From positions 248,001 to 312,000 of the forward strand of contig NW_004457695.1 in the NCBI RefSeq assembly GCF_000203815.1: a DNA stretch of 64,000 nucleotides. The letters run 5' to 3'. How positions within the stretch are numbered: position 1 is the first letter of the stretch; the number at the start of each line of letters is the position of its first letter. A program made the position numbers and the translations under genes. Below, piece by piece: positions 25,016 through 62,500 of this stretch. This DNA is from Cavenderia fasciculata. Lineage: Eukaryota; Evosea; Eumycetozoa; Acytosteliales; Cavenderiaceae. A model generated the notes under the pieces. That model saw nothing but the letters and a program-made list of their open reading frames with translations. It was not told where the DNA came from and ran no database searches.

Positions 25016-26787
25016 ATGTACAACAACAAACAAATAACATTATTCACTTTATTACTTTCATTGTGTAAGATTGATCATTACTCTAGCTAAATGTCGAGGT
25101 GACAACGAGATGATGATCGATGATCTGGTCAAAAAACTAACTAAAATTTTGTTTATCTCTCTCTCTATTTGCTATGTAGTACTAGTGACAGTCTCAGTCC
25201 AGTTGGTCTCAGGACAACAATGTGAATCACAATTAAATAGTAATTCATTCTTTATTCAACCTAATCTATGTGCATGGACTGTTAGAACGGGACTAGTTGA
25301 ACCACGTACCATCCGTGTCATGTCGAATGGAGATATCTTGGTGTTGGAGAAACCACCTGCCAGTCAAATAACTGTCATGTTTGATTCAAACAAGAACGGT
25401 GTGATTGATGGCAATGAGATTGCAGTACTTGCCAAACAAGCAAATTTGAACCACGGTCTAACAGTTCAAGGTGCCTATTTGTATGCTACCACTCCAACCA
25501 CTGTCTATAGATGGAAGTATACACCAGGCAATAGAACTAATCTAGGTACACCAGAGACTGTAATGACTGGTGTACCTGCCAACTCTCCCAATATTATGAA
25601 TGGACATTCCACTCGTACCATTGAATTTGTCAACAGTACCTCTGACGGTTTCTATCTAAGTATTGGTAGTGCAGAAAATCTTGACGCTACATCTATTCGT
25701 TCACGTGTTGTCAAATGCTCTTTTGACCTATCTGCCATTCCACAAGGTGGCTATACGTACAGTCAATGCACAGTATTTGCCGACGGATGTAGAAATGAAG
25801 TTGGTCTACGTGTAGACTCTAAAGGTAGATTATGGGGTGTTGAAAATGGTATGGATAATCTAAATAGAGCTGATATTGGTGGTGACATTCATATGGATAA
25901 TCCATGTGAAGAAGTTAACATATTTACAAATGAAGGAGGTGTAAGTAGTAAAACATAAAACCAAAAAAAAAAAAAAGATATCTCTATTTAATCAAAATAC
26001 TTATTCTACCTTCTTCTTCTTCTTATTCTTATTCTTTTAGTTTTATGGATACCCATATTGTTTTAGTGAAGGTAAATTAGCAGCTCCTTACGGAAAAGGT
26101 AATAGAACTCAATGGGCCGTGAGTCTGACCGACACAACTCACACGGATGTATGGTGTGACAACTCTACCAATGTTGGCAAACCAGTGTTTTGTATGCCAG
26201 CCCATGCTGCACCTCTTGACATTATGTTTAATGATCTTTCCACATTCCCACCTCCACTCAACAGAGGTGTCTTGGTTTCACATCATGGATCATGGAATAG
26301 AAAACCAACTGCTGGTTATCAAGTATGTAAATTAGATAATAATATATATATAGGCAGTTAATATTAATATTTATTTATTTCATAGGTAGTTGCAATTGAT
26401 ACTGATCCAACTAGTGGACTTCCTATTCAAGGAAGTTTAACCAAAGTGATTGGAGTTCCAACTGATGGAAATGAATGGAATATTAGACCTGTCAGTCTTG
26501 CCATCCTTAGACCATGTGGTGCCTATACCGAATGTTTATTATTCTCTGATGATAATACTAATTCAGTTTATGCTGTTAGGTATGTATTTAAATTAAAAGA
26601 ATACATGTTAAATACATGTGATTCAATGTTATTAATTAATTAATTATTTTAAATATTTAGATCAACATTAAATGATAATACTACAACTGGATCAACAACA
26701 GGATCATCATCTATTACTACTCCATCATTATCATCATCATTGTTTATTATTATGATTGTATTATCTTGTTTGATTTTCATCAATTAA
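25016..26787 (+). CDS. Secreted, probably GPI-anchored glucose/sorbosone dehydrogenase-like protein
   Basis: Exons 25016-25064, 25180-25940, 26041-26322, 26386-26579 and 26661-26787 give 470 residues. The first exon encodes MYNNKQITLFTLLLSL, and splicing at GTAAGA/TATGTAG joins it to LLVTVSVQLVSGQQC, a clean signal peptide. If this intron is not used, an ATG at 25110 also gives a signal peptide. The body looks like a PQQ-type six-bladed propeller of the glucose/sorbosone dehydrogenase family (EPRTIRVMSNGDILVLEKP; NEVGLRVDSKGRLWGVENG; GVLVSHHGSWNRKP). The propeller continues across three introns. The protein ends in a Ser/Thr stretch and a hydrophobic tail with no cytosolic residues, typical of GPI attachment. 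Cofactor and substrate are not proven. Confidence 0.75.
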
Positions 26788-26916: not shown

Positions 26917-29696
26917 TTAATTTAATTTAATATCATGAATTGATTTGGTCAAACAACTATCAAGTTTTAAACCCTTGAGAACATCATATTGACGTTCAGA
27001 TACATGTGATGCATATACATTGATCTCCTTGTCAATCCTTTGAATATCTCTTGTAAATCTTTCTTCAAAGTCTAAGTACATGAGAAATGAATAATTAAAT
27101 TAATATTAATATATTTTGGTTAGATTTAAAGTATTATTTTCTTTTTATAAATCATTTGGTACATACGTTTCCAACAACTATTACCACCAGTAATGACAAC
27201 ATTATTTAATAAACTTGCATGTTCTGGAATGGACTTAATCAATGATAAAGTAGATTCAACAATACCAGCTGATTTAATTTGATTCAATGCTGGATCAAAC
27301 AAAATTTCTGGTGCTCTAAATGAAATAAATAAATAAATAAATAAATATTAATTTGATTAAATATTTCTATTTTCTATTTTCTATTTTTTGAACATACGAA
27401 AATCTTAAAGAATCGGAAACTGAACCCTTTGAAGCATCAGCTTTATAGTCCATTGAAACTTGACACAATTCATAATATCTTTCCTTGAGTGGTTCACGTC
27501 TTGATTGGAGGAAGATCTTGGCTTCGGTACCATACTCTTGGGCACGAGCTGTGGTATAGTGAGCAATGGTACTACCAGTGACTGGGAAGGATACAACCTT
27601 GACATGCTTGCGATTAACAATACAAACAATAGAGGTAGCACCATGACCCATCATAACAACAGTTCCACTCTCGAGACCGTGTACTTGGAGCACCAAGAGA
27701 GCAGCATCCTTTACAATAAAAGAAGTACTAAACAACTTGCCGTGGAGTTGCTTCAAAAATGGAAGCTGGGTCATTTGTCCTGGACTGAGAGCCATGTGGA
27801 TGGGTGAAGAGATGTTGTAACGCTCATTGAAACCTGCTGTCAAAATATGACGAATGATTTGGTAATTGGTTGTCAAACGACCAATATCAAAACAACCACC
27901 GATAACTGGAGTCTGTATTGTTCCGTGTGCCGATCTACCAATATTCCATGTCTCACGATCCATTGAACTCATAACATAATGTGGTGAATAATCTTGATGT
28001 AAACTAGCTCTTGATAAATCAGATAAATATGCTGATGAATAATTTGAATACTAAAAATCAAAATAAATCAAAATAGAATATTAATTAATTAATTAAATTT
28101 TTAAAATATTATATGTTTGTTTTTTTTTGACATACTTTGATATATTCAGAACCAAAATCAATATAGATAAACTTTCCTTTTGTAAAACTTTGAATATTCT
28201 TGACTGTTAGATACCAACATTTAGTTGGTTCAGAGGCTGGAGCAACGGTCATCTTTTTAAATCTTTGGGCAAGTGTTCCGAGGATACCCTTTTTCTTTTC
28301 AAGACGTTCTTCTTGGACATGGACATTTGGTTCTTCAAACTTAAAGGCAGAGTAAGAGTAATTCTTAATGTAGACATTCTTCCACAATGCATCCTTGGTC
28401 AATGTCTTGAAATAAGATTTGCTGGTCGATCTGAATCGTCCAATATCCGTAATAGACAACATGTTGAGAATACTAAAGAACAAGTATTCTGGTACCTTTG
28501 TAAAGTAATCATCTTCAGGTTGGAATCCTCTAATAATGATTTTAGCAGAAGTAGAGGAAGTGGCAGTTGATAGGTCATCATTTGACTTTTTAAGTTCAGT
28601 TGATGGATATTGAGCCAACATCATTTGAGCTTTGACATAGGTACTGATAGCAGTCTCCAAATCACCTTTATCCTTTTCAAAACTATCGGCGAGGAAGAAG
28701 ATCTCTTTGGCCAGTTTCATATCGGCCTTTTGTTGATCGGTGAGGTTGAGACCTTGGTGAATACGCAAAAACATCATGTCGACACGCATAATGTACTTTC
28801 TGCCCGACAAGACCTCAGCACCTTCGTGGAGAGTGTCGTGGTTGAATAGGATGGCCGATCCCTTGCGTGGCTTGACCGACTCTGTCAATACATGAGTATC
28901 AAGCTCGAGAGGATTAGCTGGCAAGTAAAAGTTGGTGTGACCACCTTCAAACTCGTCGTTCAAGTAGATTTGCATCGTATAAATACTACGCTTGTTTTGT
29001 TCACTTGCATAGACAGCGTCGAGATGTGGTTTGAATCTACCTCCAGGTTCATAACGCCCAAATGTAAAACAATCATCCAATTCCAATGGAATCCAAATAC
29101 CATCTTGATCGAATCCATATGGTCTAACTCCTTCAATCTCTTCTTTTTTAAAATGTTGTCTAAAAAATATTAAATATTAAAATATTAATATATTTATATT
29201 AAATCTCTATCTCTATCTCTATCTCTCTTTTTCTATTTACATACTCTAATCTCTTCCACAAGATATTTGAAAGATCTTTATTCTTTCCAATATAACGTAA
29301 ATTGTTTCTGTATTCCTTTGGGAACTCCTTTTCAATTGTACGGTATCCTTTTGATTCACTTTCTTTTACATAGAAACTATAGAATAGATATAGTTAGATA
29401 GAAAGAAAGATTAATATTAAGAACTAGTGTATGTATGTGTGGTGTGTATGAGTGATAGGTTTAAAAACAACATACTCGCATTCTTCAGCTGACAACATAT
29501 CATGTACCAAGAAACCATGTGATGTTTGAAGATTTAAGTCTTGTCTTGAAGTAGTACTATTGTTGTTGTTGTTGTTATCAGATGCTGAGAATAACCCAAA
29601 GTCGTTAAAGTCACTACCCGTAATGATACGGCCTTCAGGTACACTGACTGTAGCCTCTTCAACAGGTGAAGAGGTCGATGTTGTTGATGTCTCCAT
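26917..29696 (-). CDS. 2OG-Fe(II) prolyl hydroxylase / F-box / actin-like fusion
   Basis: Exons 29696-29476, 29376-29245, 29159-28136, 28050-27398, 27315-27167 and 27071-26917 give 777 residues with every junction in phase. Residues ~60-250 are a prolyl-4-hydroxylase-type oxygenase: iron ligands H163 and D165 (KPHLDAVY), H229 (TLHEGAEVLSG) and 2-oxoglutarate-binding K239. Residues ~338-385 form an F-box (VPEYLFFSILNMLSITDIG). From ~445 on is an actin-related fold (FIYIDFGSEYIK; APEILFDP; NNVVITGGNS). The second phosphate loop is degenerate (VVMMGHGATS). F-boxes dock on Skp1 in SCF ubiquitin ligases; plant ARP8 joins an F-box to an actin fold. An SCF adaptor that senses oxygen or modifies its own target is inference. 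The longest exon alone spans oxygenase, F-box and the first actin strand, so the fusion is not an artefact of joining exons. Confidence 0.8.
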
Positions 29697-29965: not shown

Positions 29966-32407
29966 ATGTCAACTATAACTGATTTTGATAACAGCCTACT
30001 AAATCATATTAAACAATCAATCATCGAGTTATCATCATCATCATCAACAAGTACTTCTACAACAACAAATAGTGTTAAAAAAGATGTTCTTCTAATTATT
30101 GATGACAACCCAATCATAAAAGTAATAAGAAATAGATATTTATTATCTTGTATATTATCTAGAATACATTATGTAACACTGAAGAGTATTGAATTTGGGA
30201 GTACTACTACAACAACTGCCACAATACACGTCAACAATCATCCAACCATTTACAAATACAATCAAATCATAGATGTATGGTGGATGCTTGATAATGGGTA
30301 TATCAACCTACTACACTATCGATTAGATAGAAATGACTATATACAAATGTATGGGAGAACGGAAAGAGAAGAATCGGAACTCTTGGAAAGGATCTTTCAA
30401 ACAAAAGACTATGCTCTAGTTGCCAAGATGGTAGATCGATACCGACTAGTCTTTCTCACCAACAATAGTGTTGACTTGTCATGCTATAGCGGTCGTCTAG
30501 ATGTATTCAAGTTAATATTGTCAATTCAGGATCCAGATAATATACCCATATCAGTTGCGGCCGTAGAGAATGCAATTAAATCTGGGTCACTTGAATTGGT
30601 TCAGTTCCTAGACACCACATTTCACGAATCATGTTCCCTATCTTGTATTAATACACGTCCGTTTTGTGAATCACACAATCAACAAATCATATCTTATTTC
30701 TTGTCCAAGATGGCTGCCAACGACACAGACAAAGAGACTACTCGTAGAAAACAAAAATCATTAGATGGATTGACTATACTTTGTACATTGGATTTTGATC
30801 TAATCAATCAATACCTTTATTGTGATGAAAGTAATTTGGAACAATCGACACTTACCAACTTTGTAATGTCTACTGTTTTCTTTTTCCTCAATTTTCACGA
30901 AAAGATTAAAGGGTATCCACATGGTGCAGTTCACTCTAGCAATCTATTGGAATATTTGGGAAATAGTCAAGAGTATATTGTCAATGTTTCCAAAATCATT
31001 CCAATCATATTTAAACGTACACCACAACAAATGCAAGTGTTGCACAACAAAATATTCAAGATTATGGAAAATATTGATAGTCAAGGACCGTTATATCAAC
31101 CACTTTACAATATGCTGGTAGTCTATGAAATATTGGTCGAGAGTTTACCCGAATCATCGAGGAATGGGTCAGAGGAGAGACTGTTACACAACTTTTCAAC
31201 AAGAGGAATCATCAGACTGGGTGTGACTGACAAATCGGTCTTGGCATATATTGTCGACAAGTGCCAACCGGGTCTACGACTAAAAGAACATTATAGTGTG
31301 TTTGTTGTCACACAATACACTGCACTGGACCAACTCGATGCCATCATTGCTATTGACCCAACGTTTTTACAGTATCGACTCACTCGACTACGCGTAGCCT
31401 ATCATCAAGAGGTATTTGATCGTCTTGTTGAAATTGGTGTGCTTGGTAAACAGCTTATACTTCAGTATTGGGGTAATCGTGTAGGATCGTTTTGGGATTC
31501 TGCATGGATACGGTATTTAACGAAAAATGCTACCGACCAAATCAAAGGTGGTAGTTGGAAATTGGAAGGACATTCCTATGTCGATGCAAATACCATCGAT
31601 ATAGTCGCTCGTCTTTTAATTGAAGCTGGGGTCTCTCTTGAACCCGTCCAACAGATGCCAGGTATCCAAAATCTTTGTCAATCCAATGACAATTATCTAA
31701 TCAAATATATGGTCGCAACCAACAAATGTTGTGATGTATTTGCATTGGGTGGTGCCATACTCGGTGGTAATTTCCAACTATTCGATCATCTTGCATCGAT
31801 AAAAGATGTCAAACCATACAATGTAGACAAAGACATTCACTTTAACCAAACCTATATTTTATTCGCCATTGAACATCTCATTTCTCTAAATGATTTTGAA
31901 AGATTCAAAATATTTAGGAATCGTATCAATCATACAAAATTCGATGGTGAAATTCCAACTATGTGTATCAAATACTCCAACACCGAATTCTTTTCTCAAC
32001 TTGTTGCCATTGACTCGTCTTGTCAAACAGAAAAGCCAAACATGATGGCATTTGCAAAACGGGTTATCAAAAAACACAACATACCATTCTTGAAGTTTAT
32101 CCTCGATCGTGATGACAAAACTTATTCAACGCTAGACTTGAACCAACTATTCAGGGAAGCACTATTAAATGGCTGTGTCGAATCAATGTATAGACTAGTA
32201 CATCATTCCAATACTATATTCAAAAAAGATATTGGTAAAGTTTCATCTGGTGATATTATTAATTCAATCAAACTAGGTCATCTCCCTAGTTTAGTTTATC
32301 TTTATTCTTTAAACAAATTTATCTTAAAAGACAATAATAACACAAGACATGTTGACACCAAATTACCTTTCAACAAAACATTAACTTTATTCCTAAATGA
32401 AATTTGA
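29966..32407 (+). CDS. Large dictyostelid repeat protein (degenerate ankyrin type)
   Basis: A single 813-residue exon. After a Ser-rich stretch comes an N-terminal helix region with a hydrophobic core (IIKVIRNRYLLSCILSRIHYVTL) of the kind that opens many dictyostelid ankyrin-like multigene proteins. The rest is helix-turn-helix repeats with weak ankyrin character (SGRLDVFKLILSIQ; SGSLELVQFLDTT; NGCVESMYRLVHHS). No catalytic motif is visible. A protein-binding scaffold is the most I can infer. It is divergent from the hydroxylase/F-box/actin gene with 269 bp between starts. Confidence 0.7.
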   Translation: MSTITDFDNSLLNHIKQSIIELSSSSSTSTSTTTNSVKKDVLLIIDDNPIIKVIRNRYLLSCILSRIHYVTLKSIEFGSTTTTTATIHVNNHPTIYKYNQIIDVWWMLDNGYINLLHYRLDRNDYIQMYGRTEREESELLERIFQTKDYALVAKMVDRYRLVFLTNNSVDLSCYSGRLDVFKLILSIQDPDNIPISVAAVENAIKSGSLELVQFLDTTFHESCSLSCINTRPFCESHNQQIISYFLSKMAANDTDKETTRRKQKSLDGLTILCTLDFDLINQYLYCDESNLEQSTLTNFVMSTVFFFLNFHEKIKGYPHGAVHSSNLLEYLGNSQEYIVNVSKIIPIIFKRTPQQMQVLHNKIFKIMENIDSQGPLYQPLYNMLVVYEILVESLPESSRNGSEERLLHNFSTRGIIRLGVTDKSVLAYIVDKCQPGLRLKEHYSVFVVTQYTALDQLDAIIAIDPTFLQYRLTRLRVAYHQEVFDRLVEIGVLGKQLILQYWGNRVGSFWDSAWIRYLTKNATDQIKGGSWKLEGHSYVDANTIDIVARLLIEAGVSLEPVQQMPGIQNLCQSNDNYLIKYMVATNKCCDVFALGGAILGGNFQLFDHLASIKDVKPYNVDKDIHFNQTYILFAIEHLISLNDFERFKIFRNRINHTKFDGEIPTMCIKYSNTEFFSQLVAIDSSCQTEKPNMMAFAKRVIKKHNIPFLKFILDRDDKTYSTLDLNQLFREALLNGCVESMYRLVHHSNTIFKKDIGKVSSGDIINSIKLGHLPSLVYLYSLNKFILKDNNNTRHVDTKLPFNKTLTLFLNEI

Positions 32408-32456: not shown

Positions 32457-35400
32457 TTAAATGGGAAATCCAGTTAAAAAGAGAGAAGCCCAATGACGTG
32501 GATGATTTCTTTTTTGTTCTATACCAAGTATTTGTGCTCGTTGTAGTGATTGAGCATTTGTTAATCTCTTATTGATCAAACAATCATAAAAACATTCTAC
32601 AATCTTGTTTGTCAAATCCGAATCTGAATCTGTTGGTAATTCCCAATGACCTGAAACCACAGATGCACCAGTACACAAAAGAGACCATATCAGCCCAATT
32701 CCTCCCTTGTCTCCATTTCCTTGACCATTATTACATCTACTAATAAATATTGTTTTGATAGATGATTGATTTGCCCAATCCAACATATCCTCCATAAATA
32801 AATATTCAAATGTATCTGCATCTGTTGGTTGTTTAGATAATTGTATTGATCCTTTGACAAGTGATTGTTCCTCTTTTCCAATTGAATCCCCGTTACTTGA
32901 TATATGAATATGATCTACTATCCCATCAACTAATAATTCTTTAATATTTTGATTATTTACATGTTTTCCTATTAATACATTTGTCTAGAAATAAAATAAA
33001 TAAAAAATTAATTTAATAAATTTTAATATTTAATATATAAATAATTATAACTTACTTTTAAACCTGATTTTTTAAATAATCTTTGATAACATTTAATTTG
33101 ATTTTCTGTATAGTCTAATCCACTACCAAATGGATTTCCAATTAATACTACTTTAGGTTCAACTTTTAGAATATCTTCATTATTATTATTTTCAATCATA
33201 TTGTGTTGTTGTTGTTGTTGATATTGTTTTAAAGTTGATAAAATTTTTAATATTGATAATGATGGTAGATGAGATATTGGAAATCTTTCAACAAGATAAT
33301 TTCTATTGTTATCAATGAGAGCTGGGAATGGAACATTTGCAAGAACATCGTCAGTAACAAAACATAATGTTCTTTGACTAGGTAGTTTTGCTAGAATATC
33401 ATCTATTGGTTGAAGCAACTCTTGATACCATAACCTTAGTTTCAAAAGTAATTCACTATTATTGGTATTCTTGAAAAAATTGGAACCTTTAAAACTATAA
33501 TGATTTTTTGTTGTTGTCTCTTGTTGATTATAATTATTATTATTAATATTTAATTTTCTTGTTGATTTATGTTTTGTTTCTCTAGTTGTAATTATTTTAT
33601 CATCAATAATAAAACAAAAATGTTCAATGTAAATGATAAAGGTTGAGTCGGTAGATGTTGACATTTGTTGTATTTCTTGAAAAGTAATTTGGTGTTGGTG
33701 AAATGAATCGAATGGTAATATTTGAGGATAAAGATTTGATATAATATTGTACATTGCTATTGATCTTCTTTCATCAAAATATTTAAATGCTTCTACATGT
33801 TGTTCCAATTTTAAGTGACAATATTCTAATTGTGAATAGATAAAAGAAGAGGAGGGGGAGGAATCATTTGCCAATTTCTCTTGATCAAAATATTTTATAG
33901 CTTCTTGATAATTTTCTATATTCATCAACCAAGTTGCAATTTTCAATGATAATTTATGGTAGAGGTGATTGTTTTCCAATAGTATTTTCATTTCTTGACA
34001 ATTAAAAGTATTGAATAGGTTATAGATTTCTTTCATCTTGTTTGCCTCTAAACTTTGATTTAATACAAATTCTATAAATTCCCTTTCTTGTTTAAATTGA
34101 TCTTGATCTTGATCTTGATCTTTGTTGTAAGAAAGTAATAAATCCTTGCACATTAAAATGAATTTAGAATCCAATTCAACTTGTCTAATTGGTGTATCTT
34201 GAATATAGAAAAAGTCATCATTGTCCAAATCATCATCTTGATTTTCAACCAATTGATTGGGTTGTGGTGACACTGGCAATACTATTATTTCCTCTTGTAA
34301 ATCTTGTTGTTTATCAACCTGTGTAACTACTCGCTCCATTGCCAATGTTGCCCTTGACAATAATATTTGAGCGCTATCCTCTAATAAATGAAGTCCAATG
34401 ACATCCTGACATGACTTAATTGCCTTTTCAAATTGACGAGTATTTATAAAATATTCTGCCTCTACCAAATAACAGTCTCCCAAATGCTTAGACTCTTGTT
34501 CCACTACTCCAGTCAACTTTTTGAGCATGTCTAGAATATTTTCTATTCTCGAATCTTGATTTAATGTTGGAGGAAGATTAAATAAGATAGTGCCTATAAT
34601 ATCATCGTCAAATGGGAACCTTTTCTTTTCCAAATCATCCAAAACTAGTAGTACTCTATTGATTGCAGTGTCAAAGTCTTGTGCTTCCAATGACAGCAAA
34701 ATGACCTGAAATTCAATCTCTGGTCCAAGTGACTCTTTAGAGTTGGATACCACTAGCAACATCTCTTCTCTATACCATTTGATTCTCTCCATATCCAACA
34801 TTGTTTGAGATGATGACAAATGTGAAAGGCATTTAATTAAACCCAAGTAGATTTTGATGACTTGATTCTTTGCAATGGTATGTTGACAGGGTTTAGCACA
34901 CTGATAGGCTCGTTCAAAATACTCTAATGCTCTTACAGAGTTTCCAAAGTTTTCCAAAACATGGGCAGCCACTGCCATTAAACATTCTATTTTTTCAAAA
35001 CCAATACAAGCTCTGTCAACAACCATGTTGAATCTATCCAAATAATTATCACACACCATAATTGTATTAGAGTCACAACCACCACTGCTGTTCAAATCCC
35101 TAATTGAATGTGCCAAATATTTTGTTGCAGCGTTGTAATTACCATCGGCTTGCTTTAAAATGGAAAGTGCATCAAACCACTCTTCATCCTTTTCCATCAT
35201 AAAAATATCCAATTTCTTTTCAATGTCTACTATTATTTTTAATTCCTTTAGTGTCAGCGGTGTTGTTGTTGTATCTTCTTTTTCTTGTTGTTTTCTATTT
35301 ACAAAATATCGATAATTATCAATGAGAATACCAATTGTCTTGATTCTTCTTTTTATCGATTCATGTACACAGATCTTTGAATCAACTTCAAGATCTTGCC

Positions 35401-37238
35401 GAGTATCTTCCAATAGGCCAATATACATTTCATATTCTCCTTGAATTATTTTATACAATGATTTAATTTCCTCTTCCATTCTGTCTTGGATCAATTGTCT
35501 TTCTAATTTTTTTGATTGTTTCTTATCTATACTCGACGGAATGATTTTAAAAGAGTTTAAAATATCATTCTCTCCCAACTCTTTTGCACATTTACAAATC
35601 TTGTCAATAATACTAGTCAATTGTTTTTGATGTGCCGTTGGAGAAGAAGAGGATGAGGATGATGAGGATGATGAGGATGAGGAGGGATATGTTTCTAGGA
35701 GTGAATAAACATATGCGTATAGATTAAATGCCGTTTTATATTCACATGACTCTACCAATATTTCACCTGCACGTTGAAGAGAATTGATATAATCAACCAC
35801 TTTGTTGGGATTTGTAATGATTAGATTAGAGTCAATTACAATATTATGACTTTGATATAGGTCTACTAATTCTTTAACCAACCTACCACTACAAAGACTA
35901 TTGATTAAAGTTGGTAATAAATTGATCAATTGTTGTTGTTGTCTTGGGCAGAGATCATATGCTTTTAAAAGATATGATAATCCTCTATCTTTATGATTAG
36001 TGGTTGATTCCAATAACATTCCAACTCTATAAAGATATTTAAATTTTAAATCTGTGTCTACCAATCCACCACTAATGTCTATCAACTTGTCAAATCGTTC
36101 TAAATAATTTAAAATTAATTTAGATTCTTGATCATGATGACCATCATCATCATTTTTCGAAACCATTTCTATAATGTGTACCAATTTTAAAGATGCTTTG
36201 ACAAAATTACAATCTTTGATTGATAGAATGACATCAATATCCAATCTTTCAATTATTTTTTGTTGTTGTTGACCACCATTCTTTAATACCTCCAACTCTA
36301 AGTGACCCAATGCAACCACCATATCGTATCCAGCCATTTCATTCATCTCTTGTACGCTTAATATATCCGTTGTTACATCTTGATATTTAGATTGATCAAT
36401 TAATTGATAAAATGTAGATATCTTTTTTCTGATTGATTCGAAACCAATTGAAATGCTTTCTTCCAAGGCACCAGCTAATTTACATAAATATTGTACATTA
36501 TTATTATTATTATTATTATTTTGAGGAGAAGAGTTGACACTATTATTAATAATATATTTTAGTGTATTTGCAGTATCCTCTAAATACAAATAATATAAAT
36601 GAATTAAATTCCATTCAGAGGGTATACACCTAGAAATAATAAATAAATAAAGGTGTAAATAAATAAATAAAATGTATGTATTTGTATTGTATTGTATTGT
36701 ATTGTATTACTACATACCTAGTTAATAATTTAATTCTTTTAATATCTACAATATTATTATTATTATTAATATCACTTTCATCATCATTATCATTATTATC
36801 ATTATCATTTAAATGTTGATATAAATCATTATAAAATGACCATATTAATGATGCATATTCTTTGGCAATATCATAATAATGTAATTTGATTGAACAAATA
36901 AAGATCATTTGATATAGTTCCATTTCATCATAGGCCATTCCAAATGTTTCACACAATGATTGAATAAATGTGAGAATGATAAAAGATGAATCATAGTATG
37001 ATGATGATGATGATGAATGACAAATGAATGCTCTTGCTATATCTAGTAATGCGACCATATACGATTCTACATGGTCACTGTGATAAAGTACAAAGTCTGA
37101 ATCGATAATGATCAATCGATCATTAAGAGATTGGTGAATCTCATCTAAATGGTATGATAAATAGACATCTCGATGATTGATAGATTGATATACTAATCTA
37201 TTCACTATACCTAATTTACTCGTAGTCATCGATCGCAT
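32457..37238 (-). CDS. TPR-CHAT protein (caspase-like fold)
   Basis: Exons 37238-36718, 36629-33056 and 32984-32457 give 1540 residues. Most of the protein is helical repeats of TPR type (for example VRALEYFERAYQCAKP; QFEKAIKSCQDVIGL; NYQEAIKYFDQEKL). The C-terminal ~280 residues are a CHAT domain: LCFVTDDVLANVPFPAL, then HIHISSNG (1390-1397), ISRCNNGQG with C1449, GLIWSLLCTGASVVSGHWE, and the closing HPRHWASLFLTGFP. CHAT domains are clan CD cysteine peptidases related to caspases and separase. The Cys is present, but the usual catalytic His before Gly is Asn1396 here, so activity is uncertain. The start may be too short: an acceptor-like CAAACTAG sits just before the ATG, and an open segment around 37385-37460 could supply an upstream exon. 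Confidence 0.75.
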
Positions 37239-50310: not shown

Positions 50311-52049
50311 AGATGTCATTTGTGCACAAAATAACATCAATAGCAGTAGTGTGTTTTAGTATTAGCAGTAGTAGTAGTTTGCCAATCAATCCTGTCCACC
50401 CCACCAACCAATCGTATTTTTGTAAATATCACCAATCGATTCCGGTGCCCCTCCCTTCTTCATTCCTTCTTCTTTCTCCTTGCTGCTAGTGATGTTATTT
50501 GTTAAATTATTCTTCTATTCCAAAAACAATAGAGAATCATTCCTTTTTTAAAATAAATCAATAATAATATTTCCTTAAAAAATGATTCTTTGCCTCTTGT
50601 ATTTGATGAGTTTAATATATCGTCATCATCCAATGTTCTTCTTGTTATACTTACCATGCAATGCTTGGTCATCTTTTGTTCTCGCTTATCATCCAATTCC
50701 TTTGGAATTTAAAATGAAAGATGACAAAGCATTGGATGGTAAATAAAACAAGAACAAGAACATTGGCCCCTTACTTCTTCTTTACTTTTATGTTTGTCTT
50801 GATCGATTTGTTCTTGATAGCAACATGGACAGATATCTTGTTTAATCATCACAACATTCCTTAACGTTCATTGAACAACAAAGAAAATATGAATATCTAT
50901 CTATCTATCTATCTATCTTTGACCAACCATCAACATATTACTAATATAAATGTTCATATATGTATATATGATTTTTGTAACAAAAAAGAGAGCGAGAGAG
51001 AGTCGATAATAAAAAGAGTGAAACTACAAACAAGTGAGTTGGCCAGTAGTTTTTTTTATTTTTATTTTTTTTTTATTTAATTTCGAAAAGGGGGTGTTCA
51101 CAAAACGAACAAATTTCACTTTATTAAAAATTCAAACTAAATTTTATATATATAAATCTATCTATTTAGAGTAGGGTATATATTAGCAACACTACAAAAA
51201 GTAAGAAAAGGATGCAGAGAAGAAGAAGAAGAAGAAGAGGAAGAGGACATCACACTACTTTGACTATTACTACGATAGTAACAAACAACTCAAAAACATA
51301 ATCTATAAATATACAAGACTACTATTTATCATCAAATTGGTATAAAAAAAAGACCAGTAGTTTGGTTTTATAACCCTTTTTTGTTTGTTGAAATTTCAAT
51401 AATACTTTACAAGATAAACAAAAAGATATATCTATCATCTCTTTGAAACAAATCAATAGATATAATCATACTAGCTACCAACACACACATGCCATACATA
51501 CTAGTATGACCTTTTGTAGACGAGACAAACAGAAAAAGGTCATCACAGCAAATGACCAATACCTCGTTTAGTGTAGTTGTAGAGTGCATGTCATGTGACG
51601 GTGTAATATGTTTTTTGTCGTGAATTTGTTGTGTGAAGTTAAGGGTGTTATCGTTCATCATTCATCATTCATTTCATTATTAGTTTGGATTGGTAGACCT
51701 AGGATATGCATACATTCATTGAACTTGAGAAAATAAGAAGTGGTTTATAATCTTGCGCTTTGCTTTTGTGCTGTATTGTGCAAGTGTCGTCGTCGAACTT
51801 CGATCAACGCCAACTGTCAACTTTCCTTTTTTTTTTTTTTTTTTAATTTTTTTGACGTTCACGTGTTGCAGGTTCCCAATCCTCTCTCTCGCACTCAAAC
51901 TGACTCTATCAACAACAACAAACAACTATACAAACACACTATACAATTCTACATATATCTATCTTTTATATTATATTAATATTATATAAATACTTTTTTT
52001 TTTATTGAAACAATATATAATAGTATATCAACATATATAGAGATACAAA
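50311..52049. other. Intergenic region containing a long hairpin
   Basis: AT-rich spacer between the mini-gene and the Def1-like gene. It contains the fold-back structure listed separately. (CTAT)n at 50897-50919 and (GAA)n near 51218-51240 are visible. The frame at 51407-51661 has no protein-like character. A T-tract at 51828-51844 is followed by TSS-like DNA before the next start codon. Confidence 0.4.
50630..50766. ncRNA. Long imperfect hairpin, candidate small-RNA precursor
   Basis: The left arm (50630-~50678) is the near reverse complement of the right arm (~50717-50766). CCAATGTTCTT at one end, TTACCAT, CAATGCTT and GTCATCTTT match exactly in order, interrupted by single mismatches and one short asymmetric block. 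The loop carries its own AATTCC/GGAATT stem. The fold is about 137 nt. Dictyostelids make Dicer-dependent microRNAs from hairpins; transcription here is not shown, and the strand is open. A recent fold-back repeat is the alternative. Confidence 0.4.
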
Positions 52050-55039
52050 ATGGTAAAGGAAAACAGCAGCACTAAGAAACAATCCACCACATCGGCAGCA
52101 AGTGGTGGTGGCGGTAAGAAGACACAGGTCAGTGGTGGAGGCTCTAGCCCAGCAGATAACAACAATACTCAAGATACAAAGTTCAACCTCCAAGATATGA
52201 TCAAGACTATCAAAGAGGTGACCACTTGGAGAGACGATGACGATATCAAAACTGCATTGGAACAAAATAGTTTTAATCTTGATAGAACCATCACCTTGAT
52301 TCTTGAAGAACTTATCAAGCCAGAGCAAAAGTGGACTGAAGTCAAGAGAAGAGTAAGTATGATAAATATGACATGTGATCAACAACAAACAATGCGAGAG
52401 AAATTATAAAGATATACAAGGAGAACAATAATAAGATGCTAATATATATATATGTAATCTATTTAAAATTTAGAATGACGGAAATAAGAGTAAGAAAGAA
52501 GAAGGACAAAAGTCGGTAGAAAGAGGTTTACAAACAGGCAAGCCAAAGAAGGAGTTTAGAGGTATGTAAATGAGTTAATATTATTTATTTTTAGATTTGT
52601 ATTATGTATCTCTAACAATATTGTAATTTTTGTTTTGTTGATTTAATAGAAGGTGAAAAGAATGATCGTGGTGATCGTCCAAAGAAGGAATATAACAATA
52701 ACATTAACAGAGATAACAACAACAACAATAACAGAGATAACAACAATAGAGACAACAACAATGTCAACAATAGAGACAATAGAGACAAAAACTTAAAGAC
52801 TAATGGATATAACAAACAACAAGATCATATTTCAAGAAGACCACACACATTTGGTGCACAAAGAGAACAATCCCAATCTACCGCAATTCCATTGCAAGAC
52901 GAGCCATTGGCTGCTTCATCACCAGCCGCTCCAGCAGTCGTTGCCGCTCCACCAACCTCATCCTCATCCTCATCCTCTGCTTCATCATCACAATCATCCT
53001 CTTCTGCGGCTGCTCCTTCAACCTCGAGCACAAATAGCATCCCTGTCGATTTGGTTCACCCAACCATTTCCTCCACCAAGACTGGTGGCATGACCATGAG
53101 TCAAATTTTGGCTCAGATCAAGGAGCGCGAGCTTGCCACCCAACAAAAGCAGCATCAACAAAAGGAGGTCGTCACTGCCGTCGCCACCCCAACCCCATCC
53201 GTTGCTCCATCCACCACCACTTCTTCTTCCGCTGCCACCACTGCCTCTTCTTCATCTGTTGCTCCATCCACCACCTCTGCCGCCACCACCAACAACAATA
53301 CCGCCACCCCTGCCACCGCCACCACTACCACCGCCATCACCGCCACCCCTGCCTCTACCGGCACATCCTATGCAGCCATGATCTCTGCTGCTCAAAACAA
53401 GCAAAATGCCAAGCCAGCCGCCACCCCATCTGCAGCTGCCGCCAACCCAATCCCACTCGACCCAGAGCCCACCCCAGTTCAACCAGCTGTTGTCGCTGCT
53501 CCAGTCGTTGCTGCTCCAGCTCCAGCTCCAGTTGCTGTCCAACAACCAACTCCAGTCGTTGCCACTCCAGCCGTTGCCGCTCCAGTCCAACAACAACAAC
53601 CAGCCGTTGTCTCTGCTCCAGCTCCAGTACAACAACAACAACCAACTGCTCCAGTTGTTGCTGCTTCTGCTCAAGCTCAACCAACCCAACAACGTACCAA
53701 CTTTGGTCAAAAGCCAGGTTCTACCCATGCATGGAAGCCAAAAGAGTCACCATCCAACTCGCCTCTCACCAACCCAGCTCGTCAACCAATCGGACACCCA
53801 ACCAAGCAAGTCAACCCAGTTGCCATGCCAGACGCCCTCAACTTTGACCCAACCTCGAGCTTTGACGTCCAATTTGGCAAGAGCACCATCGAGTCGGCTC
53901 CAGTAGTACAAGCTGCTCCAGTCCAACAAGCTGCTCCAGTGCAAACTGCTCCAGTCCAAGCTGCTCCAGTTCAAACTGCTCCTGTCCAACAAGCTGCTCC
54001 AGTGCAACACGTACAACACCAACAAGTCCACAAGCAATCGCCAGTCAACCAACAACACAACATGAACCAATACCAAGCATTCCAAACCATGCCATCGATG
54101 GATCCACAACACATGATGCCAGAGTCTGATCTCCAACACATGTCTGCCTATGCCCAATACCCATACATGATGCCAATGCAATGGTTTGACGAGTTTGGTG
54201 CCCGTCAACAATTCTACGAGCAATCCTACTCGCAACAAAACGCATACAACCGTACCACCTCTCCAGTTGCCGACAACCAAACTCCACAACAACCACAACA
54301 ACCACAACAACAACAACCAAACAAGTTTGCTGGTCGTCAACAAAACACCAACCAATCATTCCGTGGATCCAATGATAATACCAACAAGTTCCATAACCAA
54401 CAACAACAAGTGCAACAACAACAAGTTCAACAACAACAGGGACAAGAGCCACAACAACAAGCTGGCGCCAACCAACACCCATCTTCACAATCCCCACCAC
54501 TCCCACAATCCCACTTCCAACCGTACGGTGGTTACTATTATGGCGGCTACTCGCAATACAGCCCATACCCCAACCAAAACACTCAATTCCTTCCATACGG
54601 CTACCCACCAAAGCCATACATGAACATGAGTCGTTACCCATCACACCCAGGTCAAAACCAAGGTTACCCCGATGAACAAGACTTTAAGTCTGCCTACCCA
54701 GGTTACAACTCGTACTTCCCATCTTCTGGTGTCGACCAATCCAAGATCTCTGCCACTGGATCTCCAACTGGTTCAAAGCAATTCCAACAACAAAACAACC
54801 AACACTCAACTAACCCAAACACTCAACCACAACAACAACAACAAGGTGACATTACCTCTCAATACAATAACCAAAAGAACCAATACTCTCGTGGAAATGA
54901 TCAACAACAACAACAACAACAACAACAACAAAATAACTATTACAACCAACAACCAGCCCAATACATGCCACATTTCCAATCTTTTCCACAAAATAATCAA
55001 CAGATGAACCAAAATAGAAACCAATACCCATTATCCTAA
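52050..55039 (+). CDS. Def1-like CUE/UBA protein with Q-rich region
   Basis: Exons 52050-52352, 52474-52561 and 52650-55039 give 926 residues. Residues ~45-100 form a CUE/UBA-like three-helix unit (LQDMIKTIKEVTTWRDDDD; NSFNLDRTITLILEEL) followed by KWTEVKRR. This combination resembles yeast Def1, which promotes ubiquitin-dependent removal of stalled RNA polymerase II, and also the GIP1/UBAP2 N-terminal unit. A Lys/Asn/Arg-rich stretch, Pro/Ala/Val repeats and long Gln/Asn-rich segments with Tyr/Pro motifs follow, typical of a disordered, condensate-prone protein. Codons are strongly C-ending, unlike its neighbours, implying high expression. An RNA-binding or translation role would also fit the tail. 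Confidence 0.6.
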
Positions 55040-58398: not shown

Positions 58399-59588
58399 TA
58401 TTGGTATGTATTACTACTTGTAATGTATTATTATCAATCAATTGCTCCTGAGAATAATGATCACACGAAACTTTAGTTCGATGGTTTCGTGGTTCACTCT
58501 GAGTGGAAAAAAATCGAATGTTCTTTGGTTGGTCGTCGAACCACCCACACATTCTTTATTCATCGTTTGTTGTGAATGTATTGAAAAGGATAATATATAT
58601 TATCATATTTCAAAGGAATAGAAGAGAGAGAGAGAGAGAGAAAGAGAAAGAGGGAGAGAGGAGATTCCGACAAATTGAATAGTTTGTTAAATTTCCTTTA
58701 CTTTATTACTTTAAATGTCGATGTTTGTTTGTTGAGACAGATGCAATATGAAACGGTACAGTTCTCTCACCACAAAACAACCCTAACCCATTTAGAGCAA
58801 TGCTAACTCTTAAGACATCTCTCTTATCATATGATATCTAAAGTGTTAACCACCACCTCATCAATACCGGTATTCCCGTACCTCTGCCAATCATAAATCT
58901 TGATGACAATCACCCCACTCTTTTTTGATATTAAAAGGGTCAGTGGTAATATTAATACACTTGTGGGTGGTGTAAGAATGTCATTATCTTAAATTGCTAA
59001 CCAACAATACACACACTCGCATTATCAAAGAACAAGCAGAAGCAGAAGCAGAAGTTAAAGTAAAGATTGTTGCCAGCAGCAGCAGCAACATAGAATGAAT
59101 GCATGCTGCCAATGCCAACTTACTAGATCAACGCAAACTCTCCTTCCTAATGGGGATCGGTTCATTTGGTTGTTTACTAAAACTCATTTTGTTGTTGTTG
59201 TTGCTGATGACAAGTTAGTTGTTATTTACCCAATCGGTCACAATCAAACAACACGACCATCTTTATCTTTAACAATCACATCCCTTATCTTATACTCCTC
59301 TTTTGTTTTGACCTACTAAAGATCAAAGAAGAATAAGATTATGTGTTGGTGTGATTTAATGTACTACTAAAGTTAACAAAAGGTAATAATGACAATAATA
59401 ATAATATTAATATTAATAATAATGAACTGTGATTCATGAACTGAACATATTAATCTAATCAAATCATTTCTTTCTAACATTATATAGATAATTATTATTA
59501 TTATTATTATCTTTTTAATTTTATTTATTTATTTTATTATTATTATACATATACGTATACATTATACGACGATACAACTTAATTAGTT
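58399..59588. other. Divergent intergenic region
   Basis: About 1.2 kb between the UPRT and polyketide synthase starts. A (GA)n run at 58625-58660 and AT-rich trinucleotide runs at 59395-59510 are visible. An open frame at 59095-59319 has Gln/Thr-rich, unremarkable translation and no homologue that I recognise. No RNA gene is seen. Confidence 0.4.
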
Positions 59589-62500
59589 ATGATTACCAAC
59601 ACTCGTTTTTCTAATAATATTGGTCAAGATCAAGAAGATGATCGAGATAATGACATTGCTATTGTTGGTATGGGGTGTAGACTACCAGGTGGATCGAGAA
59701 CACCACAACAATTCTATGAGCAATTGCTCGGTGGTTTGGATGGTATCTCAAAGATGACTGATGATAGGTGGTCAAGATCATACGTCGATCAAGGTTACAT
59801 TGCTACTGATCGTGCTGGCTTCTTGGACATGAAAGAATGGATGCACTTTGATAAACATTTCTTTGGTGTACTTGGAAAGGAAGCTGCTGCACTTGACCCT
59901 CAAATACGTCTCTATCTCTCGGTGCTGTGGGAAGCTTTAGAAGATTCACATATCGATCCTGCATCGATAAGAGGTTCAAATACATCGGTATTTCTCGGTC
60001 AAATGTTTGATGCCAATCACCATATGCTTACACACGATCTTGTAACTATGACACCTCAGGTTAAAACGGGTAGATCAGACTCATCAATCAGAGCATCGTA
60101 TTGTTATGACTTCCGTGGCCAATCACTTTCAATTGACACTGCATGTTCATCATCACTTGTTGCAGTACTTCAAGGAATAGATACTATTCTAAAAGGTGAA
60201 AGTGATATATCAATATGTGGTGGAGTCAATGCTTTCATTGAACCTACTTCATCTATTCAATTCACCGGTGCAGGTATGCTTGGAAAGGCAGGAAAGTGTG
60301 CAACATTTGATGAATCAGCCGACGGCTATGTTCGTGGTGAAGGTGTTGGTGTCGTTGTTCTCAAGAGACTGTCAAAAGCAATCGAGGACAATGATAATAT
60401 TTATTGTGTCATCAAAGGTGGAAGTAGTAACTTGGATGGTAACTTTGAAAAACAATCACAAACATCTCCTTCGGCAGCTGCACAACAAATTAATACACAA
60501 AATGCACTTAAAAGAGCTGGACTATCACCATCAGATATTTATTACGTTGAATGTCATGGTACTGGAACACCGACAGGAGACCCACTGGAAATTGAATCAA
60601 TATCTCGAGTATTTGCAGGATCACACAGTCAATCGAACCCACTTCGAATTGGATCGGTTAAAAGTAACATTGGACACACTGAAAGTACAGCAGGTGTTGC
60701 ATCACTCATCAAATGTGCAATGATGCTCAAGAATAGAATGTTGATAAAGAATATCAATTTCAACAAACTCAACCCAAAGATCAACCTATTAAACGGAGAG
60801 ATCTAGATTGTATTGGAGAATGAAGCATTCCCAGATGATGGAGGAATCATTCGAATGGGTATTAACTCATTTGGATTGACTGGTTCAAATGCTCATATTA
60901 TTCTTCAAGAGTATAAGACTGACACCAATCATCATAACAACTTTGTGACGAATGGTAAATACATTAATGATTTTTTAAATTAGTTGATTCTAACATTATT
61001 TTTTTTCCTGAAAACTAGGTAACCAAGCACCACCAGTCCCAGGATATTTAATTCCATTTTCATCAAACAGTCAAAAATCCATTGATTCATATATCAATAT
61101 GATCAAGAGTAATGTTGAATCGTATCGCAACAAGATGACATTTGAAGATTTCGTTAGATATCAATCACAATCCAAAACCAACCATCCAACTTGTAAAAAG
61201 GTTATCATTGCCAAAGATTGGGAATCATTCTCATCTGAATCAACATTGACCTTTGATAAACAACAAAGCTATATTTCAAGTATGGCACAATTGAACAGCA
61301 CACCAAAGACATCGATTGTGATGGTATTTTGTGGACAAGGAGCACAATGGAGTGGAATGGGTGATAGATTGTATCAACAATGTCCAATATTCCGTAAATC
61401 AGTTGATACTGTCGATAGATTACTATCTCATCACTATCAATATTCAATCATTGATCGACTAAGAAAGAGTAATGATAAAGAGATACATCATCCAATACTT
61501 GCACAACCAGCAACATTTATCATTCAAGTTGCATTGGTTCAATTATATCATCATTTTGGAATCACTCCATCAATCGTTGTTGGTCATAGGTATTTATTAT
61601 AATTGTATTTTATAATTGTTATTATTTTGTACTAATTTAAATATTATTTTTTATTTAGTTTTGGAGATATAACAGCAGCATGGTGTTCAGGAATATTATC
61701 ATTGGAAGAAGCTGTTAGAATTGTATATTTGAGAAGTGTTGCTCAAAATGAAACCATTGGAAGTGGTAGAATGTTGGCTGTATCATTATCATATGATAAA
61801 TTCAAAGAGAGATTTCATCAATCAGAGTATGACTCAATCGAGTTGGCATGTTACAACTCAGCTGAATCAATTGTATTGGCTGGAAATGAAGATCAACTCA
61901 AATTAATCGACCAGGAATTAAAAGACGATAATATATTCAGTGCATTCCTTGGTACACCATGTGCATTCCATTCATCATCACAAATTGAAACAAAGGAATT
62001 CATATTCAACAATTTAAACAAAATTAAATATGAAACATACAAGCCAACGATGCCATACTTTTCAACAACAACCTCCCAACAAATCATTTTATCATCTCAA
62101 CTCAATGCCCAATACATTTATGATAATCTCAGACAACCAGTATTATTCCAACAAACAATCAATAATATAGTTGATTTCACAAAGAATCAGAATAATAATA
62201 ATAATAACAATCAATATATTTATTTAGAGATTGCACCACATTCAACACTATCATTCTATTTGAAGTCGTTACTGCAACAAGGAAGCAATATTCAATCACC
62301 ACTCAACAAAAAGAAAGATGAAGTTGAATCAATTCAATCATGTCTCTCTCAACTATACTTTGGTGGTGTTTGTGTTGATTTTTCAAATCAACTCCCATTA
62401 GAAAACAACAGTGAATGGAAGAATAGAACAAGATATCTTCCAAGATATCAATGGGATACTGAATATTTGTTAGATGAACAAGAACAGTATAAAAAGATTA

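Follow-up and report, generated by a model that had tools for sequence, protein, structure and literature searches.

A predicted Cavenderia fasciculata gene that joins a 2-oxoglutarate oxygenase, an F-box-like segment and an actin fold in one reading frame

The stretch of DNA analysed here, which we call the window, comprises 64,000 nucleotides (nt) of the eumycetozoan Cavenderia fasciculata and corresponds to C14:248001-312000 in the genome that we searched, which amounts to 31.0 Mb in 21 contigs, cited below as C1 to C21. Our subject is a predicted coding gene on its minus strand, at window positions 26917..29696, whose product of 777 amino acids (aa) combines an oxygenase of the 2-oxoglutarate (2OG)-Fe(II) type, an F-box-like segment and an actin fold. 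A preliminary description of the locus had proposed six exons in one reading frame between these limits, and this is borne out by enumeration of the GT..AG combinations around five expected introns, from which the longest product was chosen. The resulting coding sequence, predicted to be 2334 nt long, has its ATG at 29696 and a TAA that ends at 26917. All five introns, of 99, 85, 85, 82 and 95 nt, start with GTATGT and end with AG, and their GC content is 0.106-0.273 as against 0.284-0.404 in the exons.

It is the arrangement of the exons, all of them on the minus strand, that ties the three modules together. Splice enumeration places the N-terminus and the start of the oxygenase domain in exon 1 (29476..29696, 221 nt) and the N-terminal part of that domain in exon 2 (29245..29376, 132 nt), so that about residues 60-118 of the enzyme are encoded by these two exons. 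Exon 3 (28136..29159, 1,024 nt), recognised as an open frame without an internal strong donor, carries the oxygenase core, a predicted helical hairpin, the F-box-like segment and the first actin loop, while the remainder of the actin fold is divided by the same enumeration between exon 4 (27398..28050, 653 nt; its middle), exon 5 (27167..27315, 149 nt; with the GGNS motif) and exon 6 (26917..27071, 155 nt; its end and the TAA stop). The earlier statement that one exon alone spans the first two modules and enters the third is therefore right for the F-box, for the catalytic core of the oxygenase and for the first loop of the actin fold, and fails for the N-terminal part of the enzyme. Exon 3 is open in its frame over the full 1,024 nt, whereas the other two forward frames contain 34 and 8 stops; none of 20000 base shuffles left any forward frame open throughout, and neither GTAAGT nor GTATGT was found inside it. 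As all three modules are linked within this one open exon, a split into separate genes is very unlikely, and we reject the two-gene reading: the modules belong to one predicted gene, read in one frame across six exons. The adjoining open frames are on the opposite strand, one ending near 26787 and the other with its first ATG at 29966.

Of the domains in the protein, the oxygenase scores best, with a Pfam match to PF13640 (2OG-FeII_Oxy_3) over aa 150-242 (28787..29065) that reaches 51.2 bits (E 2.5e-13, whole protein). The cut-off is 27 bits, as it is for the actin family PF00022, which scores 43.5 bits, so that the Pfam check proposed for the oxygenase and actin assignments rejects neither. 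In enzymes of this type an HxD...H motif forms the iron triad and a basic residue is the 2OG ligand. The iron ligands picked out at the start, H163 (29026-29024), D165 (29020-29018) and H229 (28828-28826), are indeed intact, being conserved in 29, 30 and 29 of the 30 rows of an alignment with 29 relatives; K239 (28798-28796) and a further histidine, H225, are present in all 30. The distal histidine and the lysine align with those of 3itq, and the domain has the double-stranded beta-helix fold. All the catalytic residues of a 2OG-Fe(II) oxygenase are, then, in place. A fold match of this kind says nothing about the substrate, and action on proline, and with it the prolyl label, is unproven.

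The actin fold lies at the other end of the protein. The PF00022 match covers aa 673-757 (26980..27411), crossing introns 4 and 5, with an E value of 2.1e-11 for the whole protein and 47 bits for the domain alone; in addition, aa 563-765 align in a phmmer search with an actin of solved structure (E 4.1e-8), and a profile made from four actins and actin-related proteins (Arps) of the same genome aligns with aa 561-749 at E 2.8e-18, in a search of this single protein. The GGNS motif reported previously is found at residue 720, and an IDFGS loop at aa 451-455 (28148..28162), aligned by eye with VIDNGSGMCK of actin, resembles the phosphate-1 loop. A single-sequence structure model of exon 4 alone had a mean predicted local distance difference test (pLDDT) score of 31.5. 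In actin, the acidic residues of the phosphate-2 loop are tied to ATP hydrolysis. Here the DSGDG of the conventional actin L020 aligns with MMGHG, in which those residues are gone, and hydrolysis of ATP by this actin fold is consequently unlikely. Viral kin of the actin part were not found (0 of 82 stretches confirmed). As for a second gene with an F-box and an actin fold, one close pair was noticed among the matches listed for this genome, on C5 (L169:3242-4681), where an Arp3-like gene adjoins kinase-like frames whose C-terminus is F-box-like, as judged by eye and by a PF12937 match.

Between the enzyme and the actin fold, AlphaFold2 (AF2) predicts a helical hairpin at about aa 259-300 (28613..28738) with moderate confidence (block means 60-71), and this is followed by the F-box-like segment at aa 340-382 (28367..28495), found as a Pfam match below the cut-off and with a model derived from F-boxes of the genome itself. 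That model, built from 20 of the 51 PF12937 matches, picked among the best-scoring, aligns with aa 341-381 at 13.9 bits, and the best of 2000 shuffles reached 7.1. What had been described as an F-box is thus upheld as far as its place before the actin fold and its likeness to F-boxes of its own genome are concerned, and falls short in its Pfam score. We regard a true F-box as likely, not proven, and as the weakest of the three parts. The tail after the enzyme is similar to that of a paralogue on C21 (L024:1341-2081), with 25 of 5000 shuffles scoring as well; the paralogue stops directly after this helical tail, and neither an F-box nor an actin fold was found in its frame. Since the two proteins have a similar tail, enzyme and hairpin may form a unit older than the fusion to the F-box and the actin fold.

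PF13640 matches occur at 11 places in this genome, and one of them, C2:1583006, is on reading by eye a separate EGLN/PhyA-like gene. This matters for the suggested link between our oxygenase and the Skp1 prolyl hydroxylase PhyA, which did not survive: in BLASTP comparisons with four oxygenases of the same genome, our domain matched those on C7 (E 4e-33) and C21 (3e-32) and, more weakly, C1 (1.6e-6), whereas the PhyA-like protein gave only E 0.006 over 46 aa and was absent from the 29 matches at E<=10, six of which are the gene itself. PhyA identity is accordingly rejected on the separate gene and the weak match, with C7, C21 and bacterial enzymes all closer. A tblastn scan of prokaryote genomes confirmed 32 of 73 candidate stretches as oxygenase relatives, at 32-46% identity; all 32 were retrieved via the pattern K[YF][IVL][MI]RxDxM[YF], so that the motif is common to them by selection. 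When an alignment served as query, 103 of 156 viral stretches were also confirmed (80 kept), at 28-40% identity as against 32-46% for the bacterial loci, and with exon 3 as query none of three viral candidates was; a viral source of the oxygenase was rejected on these two grounds. The tree, of 35 rows (28 of the 32 bacterial loci, one of the 80 viral loci and six of this genome) and rooted on C2 and C1, groups our oxygenase with C21 at 88/69, where long branches meet and the bootstrap is unsettled; among its inner branches, 8 of 32 are starred and 17 of 32 open. The nearest row by plain identity is bacterial (L034, 40%), C7 and C21 tie by BLASTP, and with the tree this weak we claim no closest relative.

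Frames were read for 26 of the 32 bacterial and 7 of the 80 viral loci. Most of the bacterial ones (22 of 26) are only 168-218 aa long, and the other four (L037, L038, L041 and L047) have C-terminal extensions of 278-294 aa, which in both of those scanned with Pfam, L037 and L038, contain WD40 repeats. Four of the seven viral-contig frames (L067, L068, L072 and L076) run 216-245 aa beyond the oxygenase match, and L067, the one scanned, matched oxygenase families alone; no F-box or actin match was found in the three scanned frames, two bacterial and one viral. As a separate observation on the family, PF13640 is matched at three places in C3:493897-506214, a span of about 12 kb, and one of these lies on the opposite strand; both frames read there have acidic N-termini, and one contains an in-frame TAG.

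Elsewhere in the window, a 1227-aa open frame at 33026-36706 (minus strand) matches the CHAT domain (E 1.6e-8) and, below the cut-off, TPR. A strongly skewed open frame of 807 aa lies at 52616-55036 (plus strand), in the most GC-rich stretch of the window (0.457 at 52001-54000), with a 33-nt tandem repeat at 53905-54007. A frame at 59583-60803 (plus strand) contains ketoacyl synthase domains (E 9e-70) and may be where a polyketide synthase gene begins.

Each pair of neighbouring modules is already known from other organisms, the oxygenase with an F-box (JcdI, KDM2A/B) and the F-box with an actin domain (plant SUSA2/ARP8). The plant precedent, already named in the preliminary description, is SUSA2/ARP8 (At5g56180), in which an F-box precedes an actin domain and which binds ASK1; PMC7562919 calls the combination plant-only, proposes the actin part as target receptor and finds the predicted nucleotide-binding residues dispensable. 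The likeness extends to our protein, in which the F-box-like segment, here below the Pfam cut-off, is followed by an actin fold from about aa 445 whose nucleotide site is partly lost, and the difference is that the plant protein, as described there, has these two domains only and lacks an oxygenase. The precedents for joining an oxygenase to an F-box, by contrast, were missing from the preliminary description. Two amoebal proteins, JcdI/Fbxo13 and JcdH of Dictyostelium, combine a non-heme 2OG dioxygenase with an F-box, as ours probably does. According to PMC9485057, JcdI is a Skp1-binding protein whose Km for O2 is estimated at 22%, and the abstract states that for oxygen sensitisation JcdI depends on its dioxygenase and further domains, the F-box being dispensable. 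Their enzyme is of the JmjC class and their F-box lies N-terminal of it, whereas here a PF13640 enzyme comes first and the actin fold last, and JmjC was not among the five Pfam families listed for our protein at E<=1. The genome has a JcdI/JcdH-like frame of its own (408 aa, C18:810283-811506, L170:484-1707), with an F-box match at C18:810424 and a JmjC match at C18:811132. KDM2A and KDM2B (FBXL11 and FBXL10) are histone demethylases with leucine-rich repeats and are not known to contain an actin fold. They too hold an oxygenase and an F-box in a single protein, with the oxygenase domain N-terminal (PMC7729025), and differ in that this domain is JmjC rather than PF13640. DdPhyA is likewise a 2OG oxygenase tied to the biology of Skp1/Cullin-1/F-box (SCF) complexes (PMC7864055), unlike ours a stand-alone enzyme acting on Skp1, whose likely counterpart here is the separate gene on C2. 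The bacterial PF13640 enzymes have a related domain, some with WD40 repeats (L037, L038), and differ in being mostly short frames, without F-box or actin matches in those scanned. The oxygenase, F-box and actin triple was not found in the titles and abstract beginnings of the open-licence papers that our searches listed; the D. discoideum actinome paper counts 41 members, and 'F-box' is absent from its main text. A D. discoideum orthologue may be tabulated in the supplement of PMC9485057.

How might such a protein work? We favour, at a little under an even chance, the idea that it is an SCF receptor subunit, in which the actin fold binds a client and the built-in oxygenase modifies that client or a partner. 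The F-box would dock the protein on Skp1/Cullin-1, presumably by binding Skp1; the actin fold, probably not an ATPase, would serve as the client-binding surface; and the enzyme would hydroxylate a presumptive target residue, whether in the client, in a partner or within its own polypeptide. Were hydroxylation coupled to ubiquitination, the output of the complex would depend on oxygen, iron and 2OG. Oxygen is required by 2OG oxygenases, and oxygen sensing by this one is unproven. In its fullest form the idea becomes a self-contained, oxygen-gated ligase subunit, in which the actin fold holds the client, the oxygenase hydroxylates it given enough oxygen, iron and 2OG, and the F-box then passes the modified client on to SCF; this we consider unlikely, and if true it would place the PHD2 and VHL roles of animals in one protein, in a group without HIF.

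Several results weigh against a receptor subunit of this kind. The F-box-like segment stays below the PF12937 cut-off of 24.3 bits, reaching 18.5 when the whole protein is scanned and 20.4 when a 194-aa piece is (15 and 17.5 against 20.5 for PF00646), and its AF2 model consists of short helices with pLDDT <50. When the stretch of hairpin and F-box was searched against PDB sequences, the best match was to an NADH dehydrogenase subunit at E 0.4, which we read as chance. In the actin fold, the N-terminal half is of normal size and keeps IDFGS...K, and has no significant profile match, the match beginning only at aa 561-563; and not all structural neighbours of the oxygenase are enzymes described as prolyl hydroxylases. 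It could be argued from the low Pfam score and the low model confidence that the F-box-like segment is a bundle of helices that arose by chance or has decayed, and that we are looking at a fusion of an oxygenase and an actin-related protein, with actin or an Arp complex as its possible target. This seems to us quite improbable, given that the own-genome F-box model scores the segment above 2000 of 2000 shuffles and that none of 5000 shuffles paired as well with the F-box of a C15 gene, although that partner was preselected as an existing match (E 0.05).

A different division of labour would make the oxygenase the working part, with the F-box only setting the turnover of the protein via Skp1 and the actin fold scaffolding or localising it. 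The top score of the oxygenase within the protein fits this, the concept of an F-box for own turnover is raised for some F-box proteins in section 7 of PMC9485057, and the F-box-independent oxygen sensitisation by JcdI in the same source points the same way. Set against it is the order of F-box then actin fold, which is the layout of plant SUSA2, where the actin part is the proposed target receptor (PMC7562919), and we hold this, the main alternative, to be somewhat unlikely. One might also imagine the enzyme as a second PhyA with Skp1 as its substrate, since the F-box would bring Skp1 near the active site; with a separate PhyA-like gene, and with E 0.006 over 46 residues for C2 compared with about 1e-32 for C7 and C21, this is highly improbable. 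An artefact of the gene model or the assembly that fused two or three neighbouring genes is more improbable still, because exon 3 runs from the oxygenase core through the F-box to the first loop of the actin fold with no stop and no GTAAGT or GTATGT inside it, and five of five introns are canonical.

If the F-box is real, the combination of F-box and actin fold would occur outside plants, against the plant-only statement in PMC7562919, and the genome would hold a second, unrelated oxygenase-F-box fusion beside its F-box and JmjC gene. PMC10559540 describes PhyA as the only oxygen sensor known in D. discoideum and reports that Polysphondylium violaceum deleted for phyA showed no discernible impairment in forming fruiting bodies. 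The oxygenase described here, possibly tied to SCF, would be a further candidate beside PhyA.
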